Source of the DNA: Spirogloea muscicola
Lineage: Eukaryota; Streptophyta; Zygnematophyceae; Spirogloeales; Spirogloeaceae
NCBI GenBank assembly: GCA_009602725.1
Contig: WELB01000026.1
Span: forward strand, 491,241-555,240
Length of the DNA: 64,000 bases
Direction of reading: 5' to 3'
Made by a program: the position numbers and the translations under genes. The notes below the pieces were generated by a model. That model was not told where the DNA came from, did not search any database, and saw only the letters and a program-made list of their open reading frames with translations. Position 1 is the first letter of the stretch. Each line of letters starts with the position of its first letter. Shown piece after piece: positions 43,585-44,122 of this stretch.

Positions 43585-43683
43585 AGATCTACAAATATTA
43601 CTAACTAGCGAATTTAGTGAACGACGTCAGATTTTATTATGGATCGCTTTATTTGCTTCTTTCGCCGTCAAGGTTCCTATGGT
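43585..43683 (+). pseudogene. nad4: Nuclear mitochondrial insertion: nad4 fragment
   Basis: Thirty-three in-frame codons beginning DLQILLTSEFSERR then QILLWIALFASFAVKVPMVP match the conserved middle of plant-type NADH dehydrogenase subunit 4, just before the invariant HIWLPEAH, which is absent. Sequence changes sharply after GTTCCTATGGTACC. It is adjacent to a cox1 piece in the opposite orientation, so this is a composite organelle-derived insert. 43684-43832 between them is unidentified. Confidence 0.8.
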
Positions 43684-43832
43684 ACCACGGCTGCCTTATA
43701 CAGCCGCCCTTGGAGAAAGCCAGCCGCTGTCTATCGTGGACTTCCGTTGGTCAGTGTACAAACAGTGTACAAACACACCCAGCACTCTTTTGCCATGAGC
43801 TCTTCTTGCCCCCTCCCCACCACTTGCAGTCT

Positions 43833-44122
43833 GAATATTGAAGGCCAGAAATTTTCCCTATCCAATAATAAAACCCTGCGATTAAGGCACAGACAGCTCC
43901 CATAGAAAGAACATAATGAAAATGGGCTACCACATAGTAAGTATCATGCAAAGCGATATCCAAACCGGAGTGCTAATACAATTCCTGTTAGCCCTCCTCA
44001 AGTAAATAAGAAAATAAATCCTACAGCAAATAGCATAGGTGTTTTCAGCTCAATGGAACCTCCCCACATAATAGCAATCCAACTAAAATTTCAATTCCTG
44101 TTGGTACTGCAATGATCATTCG
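43833..44122 (-). pseudogene. cox1: Nuclear mitochondrial insertion: cox1 fragment
   Basis: On the minus strand MIIAVPTGI, then after a one-base deletion [26 protein letters not shown], an in-frame [12 protein letters not shown], a two-base deletion, and [20 protein letters not shown], then [13 protein letters not shown]. This is the haem-copper oxidase core near TM helices VIII-X. Three lesions make it non-functional. The A+T-rich composition contrasts with its neighbours and fits a mitochondrial source. Confidence 0.9.

Follow-up and report, generated by a model that had tools for sequence, protein, structure and literature searches.

Capture of foreign DNA at chromosomal breaks by end joining is the accepted route of NUMT formation (PMC2567098, PMC6215612). 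The complex NUMTs described in plants (PMC6215612) and the NUMTs described at repaired breaks in primates (PMC2567098) bring together several organelle fragments, differing in position and orientation, at a single nuclear site, with junctions that are blunt or share 1-7 bp of microhomology and with little or no loss of target sequence; 54% of the 90 primate insertions are reported to be without loss of host bases (PMC2567098). In yeast, a preprint describes nearly 4,000 insertions with two to four fragments among about 33,000, with short fragments of about 45-300 bp being favoured (PMC10802722). Most of these complex yeast insertions contain mtDNA only, the rest being Ty or nuclear sequence alone or mixtures, and according to the same source, complex NUMTs with nuclear pieces among their fragments are known from nature as well (PMC10802722). 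Plant NUMTs and NUPTs that are co-located or co-amplified with transposable elements have also been described (PMC7037861).

We analysed a window of 64,000 nucleotides (C26:491241-555240) from the Spirogloea muscicola assembly, which comprises 153 Mb in 471 contigs; unprefixed positions below are window positions, and C and L numbers denote contigs and loci. The window holds a 537-base insert at 43584-44120, built from three abutting pieces of three different origins (Table 1). The contig is 1.04 Mb long and one host element is present on both sides of the insert, which indicates that the flanking DNA is nuclear. Like the plant and primate examples, the locus combines fragments of mixed position and orientation at one site, with blunt or short-overlap junctions and little target loss: nad4 lies on the plus strand and cox1 on the minus strand, so that two non-collinear mitochondrial fragments share one nuclear site, as in a complex NUMT. 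Unlike the classes set out for plants, which are mitochondrial, plastid or both (PMC6215612), it carries a nuclear repeat between its organelle fragments. It resembles the insertions at double-strand breaks in stationary-phase yeast in being multi-fragment and of the kind that draws on mixed mtDNA, retroelement and nuclear sources, and its pieces measure 104, 144 and 289 bases, within the yeast size range; the yeast events were obtained in the laboratory at an induced cut (PMC10802722), whereas the present one arose naturally in a different lineage. As in the plant loci associated with transposable elements, organelle DNA lies in or beside a mobile element, but unlike the co-amplified NUMTs among them (PMC7037861) the present insert was found only once; the co-amplified kind occurs elsewhere in this genome.

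Table 1. Features of the insert and its host element (window positions).
Feature	Positions	Strand	Evidence and remarks
Host element, C-terminal coding end, left half (decayed copy)	43258..43583	+	blastn and paralogues
nad4 fragment, internal, 104 bases	43584..43687	+	Solved nad4 chains and NUMT copies
Dispersed-nuclear-repeat fragment, 144 bases	43688..43831	+	Copies on C42, C39 and C8; final TC may belong to cox1
cox1 fragment, internal, 289 bases	43832..44120	-	PF00115 and NUMT copies; start 43830 if TC is cox1
Host element, right half	44121..44167	+	24 matches to right half alone; uninterrupted paralogues

The identities of the two gene pieces were established from protein and nucleotide matches, those at the protein level being much stronger than chance would give. 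In the nad4 reading frame, residues 6-43 are similar to nad4 chains of solved structure (lowest E 1.2e-13), and the same frame has no match in Pfam up to E 1; at the nucleotide level the piece is 88% identical to NUMTs on C183 and C116 and 80% identical to one on C20. The cox1 frame is broken. When its two parts are searched separately, each matches PF00115 (E 1.8e-10 for profile positions 292-331 and 4.1e-13 for 333-376), and the cox1 piece (C26:535069-535362) exceeds the cut-off of that family. It matches NUMTs on C76 (L018; 95% over 232 columns) and C64 (85%). Relative to L018 it lacks 2 bases at one place and 1 base at another, and has TGA for TTA. These matches confirm the preliminary description of a plus-strand nad4 segment and a minus-strand cox1 segment with a 1-base deletion, an in-frame TGA and a 2-base deletion. 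We set aside the idea that the TGA encodes Trp under a mitochondrial code on the basis of three other copies, which have TTA (L018) or ATA (L019 and L020) at that position, the Trp codons read in L018 being TGG. The solved chains that best match nad4 and cox1 are, judging from their entry codes, presumably land-plant entries. The GC contents of nad4 (0.375) and cox1 (0.377) are low compared with those of the 500-base flanks (0.626 and 0.504) and of the window (0.556). Thus, the A+T richness noted earlier holds for the gene pieces, but what had been called a single island is split in two by the middle piece (0.556). A search of the window against Rfam at gathering cut-offs gave 0 matches.

The middle piece had been listed, at 43684-43832, as a possible third organelle fragment. 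This reading is rejected, given that its three other copies, on C42, C39 and C8, sit in a nuclear repeat. The piece shares 96% identity with the C42 copy (3 mismatches and one 3-base gap in 144 columns) and 84% with those on C39 and C8. All three copies have homologous flanks on either side; to the right, C42 and C39 remain homologous for several kilobases (87% over 3,655 columns), while the homology to the left among the three copies is weaker and shorter. Because of this homology on both sides, the piece does not begin or end as a separate unit within the repeat and was cut or copied from the repeat's interior; a transposon with its own ends is rejected on the same grounds. Its position inside a repeat of several kilobases common to the three contigs would also speak against a plastid origin (numin). 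Judged from these copies, the nuclear-repeat identity of the piece is new relative to the preliminary description.

The flanks of the insert correspond to the terminal part of the coding region of a retroelement, other copies of which lie in the window at 56335-56767, 11089-11271 and 26626-26758. The left half aligns by blastn with 56335-56716 (72.5% over 382 columns) and also matches 11271-11158 and 26758-26626; both halves joined are 89-91% identical to the three best paralogues, on C187, C248 and C74. For three related window ORFs Pfam gave nothing up to E 0.1, for one of these the solved structures gave nothing up to E 10, and the sequence farther upstream of two host copies yielded no usable element frame. 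Its motifs suggest that the host may be an RLE-type LINE, a class with a reverse transcriptase and a restriction-like endonuclease. Following the check proposed in the preliminary description, we aligned the joined flanks to other copies of the element, scoring the best 40 of 2,986 first-look candidates. Paralogues from 30 loci and the window were kept if their alignment started before query position 60 and ended after 150, and hits that did not span the site were dropped. The site is uninterrupted in all 40 aligned spanning paralogues, two of them from the window; given that the rule selects spanning copies, and that these are paralogues and not an orthologous allele, this result shows the empty state and not the frequency with which the site is filled. 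The commonest empty-site states are GTCTTTCGG (n=10) and GTCTGTCGG (n=7), and the remaining ones show substitutions or changes of a few bases. In the window the order is GTC, insert, CGC, so that 1-3 host bases are replaced; the exact number follows from the assignment of the final TT to cox1 or to the host. The two halves do belong to one element, as described earlier; the loss of about five bases reported with them is reduced to 1-3, and the insert itself stands with its ends moved from 43585-44122 to 43584-44120.

We read the junctions by eye, inferring them from paralogous NUMTs and repeat copies and not from the organism's own mtDNA. At the host/nad4 junction the host has GTC followed by T, the NUMT has A followed by CAGAT, and the window reads GTC-CAGAT. 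Likewise, at the nad4/middle junction nad4 has ACCA followed by GTT, the repeat has ACT followed by CGG, and the window reads ACCA-CGG. The middle/cox1 junction contains a TC common to both partners (repeat CAGTC then CG, cox1 GTT then TCTG, window CAGTCTG), and the cox1/host junction a common TT (cox1 has ATCATT before GTG, the host TCTTT before CGG, and the window reads ATCATT-CGC). The overlaps of 0, 0, 2 and 2 bp lie within the range for NHEJ filler DNA, in which junctions are blunt or have 1-7 bp of microhomology, and the replacement of 1-3 bases relative to the paralogues agrees with the small or absent loss at the empty site of such filler. Two overlaps of 2 bp could well arise by chance and point to no particular pathway. 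A nad4 NUMT on C20 (L017; minus-strand match 1669-1757) starts within a few bases of the start of the window's nad4 piece, and its other flank differs; the near-coincidence may be due to chance or to a preferred breakpoint.

To learn whether the pieces are found together elsewhere, we compared 43560-44170 with the whole assembly. Scoring the best 40 of 142 first-look candidates gave 41 matches, the locus itself and 40 others, each of which covers one part only: 3 match nad4 (C183, C116 and C20), 3 the middle piece, 10 cox1 and 24 the right half of the host. Two of the three pieces were found at one place in 0 of 69 other loci, several of which overlap each other; 33 of the 69 carry one piece. 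The nad4 sequence on C116 continues far beyond the point that matches 43687, and that on C183 about 10 bases beyond it; cox1 on C210 and C89 goes on as cox1 beyond the position corresponding to 43831. Since both genes run through the breakpoints in other NUMTs, the middle piece is not their natural neighbour, and a natural mtDNA junction is rejected. No intact cox1 was found in the assembly: of 15 PF00115 matches (all 19 candidates scored), none covers more than 225 of 436 profile positions; the longest, on C64, covers positions 211-435 of 436 and has five stops. A 703-base cox1 stretch gave 28 matches (all 27 candidates scored), all of them partial except its own place. The cox1 matches found in this assembly are therefore fragments, and the mitochondrial genome itself was not seen in it.

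Very probably, the insert arose when end joining repaired a break in a partial retroelement copy that was already old, and three foreign fragments were taken up together. The double-strand break would have come first; nad4 DNA, a piece of the nuclear repeat and, in reverse orientation, cox1 DNA would then have been captured in one joining event, presumably by end joining of the classical type (Ku/ligase IV). Our tests are consistent with the earlier suggestion that joined fragments entered a resident element, probably by end joining. Separate insertion of the pieces, one by one, at the same place is very unlikely: NUMT pieces are dense enough in the genome (28 cox1 and 13 nad4 matches) for repeated hits to be conceivable, but the pieces abut without leftover host or organelle bases, so that a later piece must land exactly on an earlier junction, and they are similarly diverged. 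Template switching during repair synthesis (of the break-induced or polymerase-theta type) might have taken the place of ligation, at least for the nuclear piece. The donor-like copy on C42, 96% identical, is still in place and two junctions have 2-bp overlaps; the other two look blunt, however, and insertions of mtDNA, Ty and nuclear DNA in yeast, a different organism, are reported to need Lig4 and not Rad51 or Pol32 (PMC10802722), so we consider such switching improbable.

That the structure is an assembly chimera would accord with the finding of no second place with these joins (best 40 of 142 candidates; 69 other loci). Against this, the host element continues on the far side of the insert after a loss of 1-3 bases, the cox1 piece bears mutations of its own, and several false joins would be needed that happen to restore the site; an artefact is highly improbable. 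We give least credence to the idea that a rearranged mitochondrial genome had itself acquired the nuclear repeat and supplied all three pieces ready linked, given that nad4 and cox1 continue through the breakpoints in other NUMTs and that the three other middle copies found sit in a nuclear repeat. Within capture by end joining, it is conceivable, if rather unlikely, that the middle piece is reverse-transcribed DNA of a transcribed repeat, and that mtDNA and retroelement cDNA were joined extrachromosomally and captured together.

We also compared the divergence of the parts. Differences private to the window number 7 in 274 columns for cox1 (two of the seven resting on two rows only), 3 in 88 for nad4 (three rows at most) and 8 in 175 for the host. 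An automatic count for the middle piece (14 in 135) was set aside since two of the three copies used as reference are from a different subfamily, and the direct comparison with C42 was used. The divergences of the pieces agree roughly, which would be in line with one event. The host divergence is higher than that of the insert, not clearly so, and divergence alone does not prove the order. The element is older than the insert because the insert is nested in it, which upholds the age order proposed earlier. The insert is probably without function.

Other NUMTs in the genome were observed alongside. A cox1 NUMT of about 610 bases on C76 (L018 4099-4708) lies in a repeat with an empty copy on C27 (L063), which aligns to the left flank up to 1501 and to the right flank from 1501; since the flanks meet there, no target base was lost. 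Including the locus itself, 26 of the 28 matches to the 703-base cox1 stretch are 51-229 bases long, and 12 of the 13 matches to a 417-base nad4 stretch are 63-243 bases long. L066 (C383) and L068 (C92) both hold the same 60 bases of cox1, with an identical extra base, in a repeat 84-88% alike over about 2.9 kb, and this NUMT was apparently copied together with its host repeat. Likewise, L005 (C77) and L006 (C55) hold a cox1 NUMT of 216-219 bases as part of homologous DNA that extends over about 1.7 kb (three aligned stretches, 78-89%), apparently multiplied together with its surroundings. At L071 (C193:10739-10854) a nearly identical 60-base cox1 stretch is present in two head-to-tail copies.

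Protein-domain matches also lie on the minus strand of the window. At 48483-54681 an HNH domain scores over its cut-off, with SNF2-related and helicase C-terminal segments under theirs, a domain order that we take to resemble ZRANB3-type proteins. At 37403-40115 HATPase_c scores over its cut-off and MASE1 and HisKA under theirs, and the product is probably a sensor histidine kinase. Segments of fructose-1,6-bisphosphatase, with the N-terminal domain over its cut-off, lie at 5329-5841.

The insert is ordinary in kind, and it leaves knowledge of the route of organelle DNA to the nucleus unchanged. If the middle piece did arise as cDNA, the locus would be a natural counterpart of the mixed mitochondrial/Ty insertions of yeast, and the many short NUMT pieces of this genome could be a standing record of such traffic. 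As a little-decayed scar in which three sources, four junctions and the empty site are all readable, it suggests that mixed mitochondrial-nuclear capture occurs naturally in this lineage.
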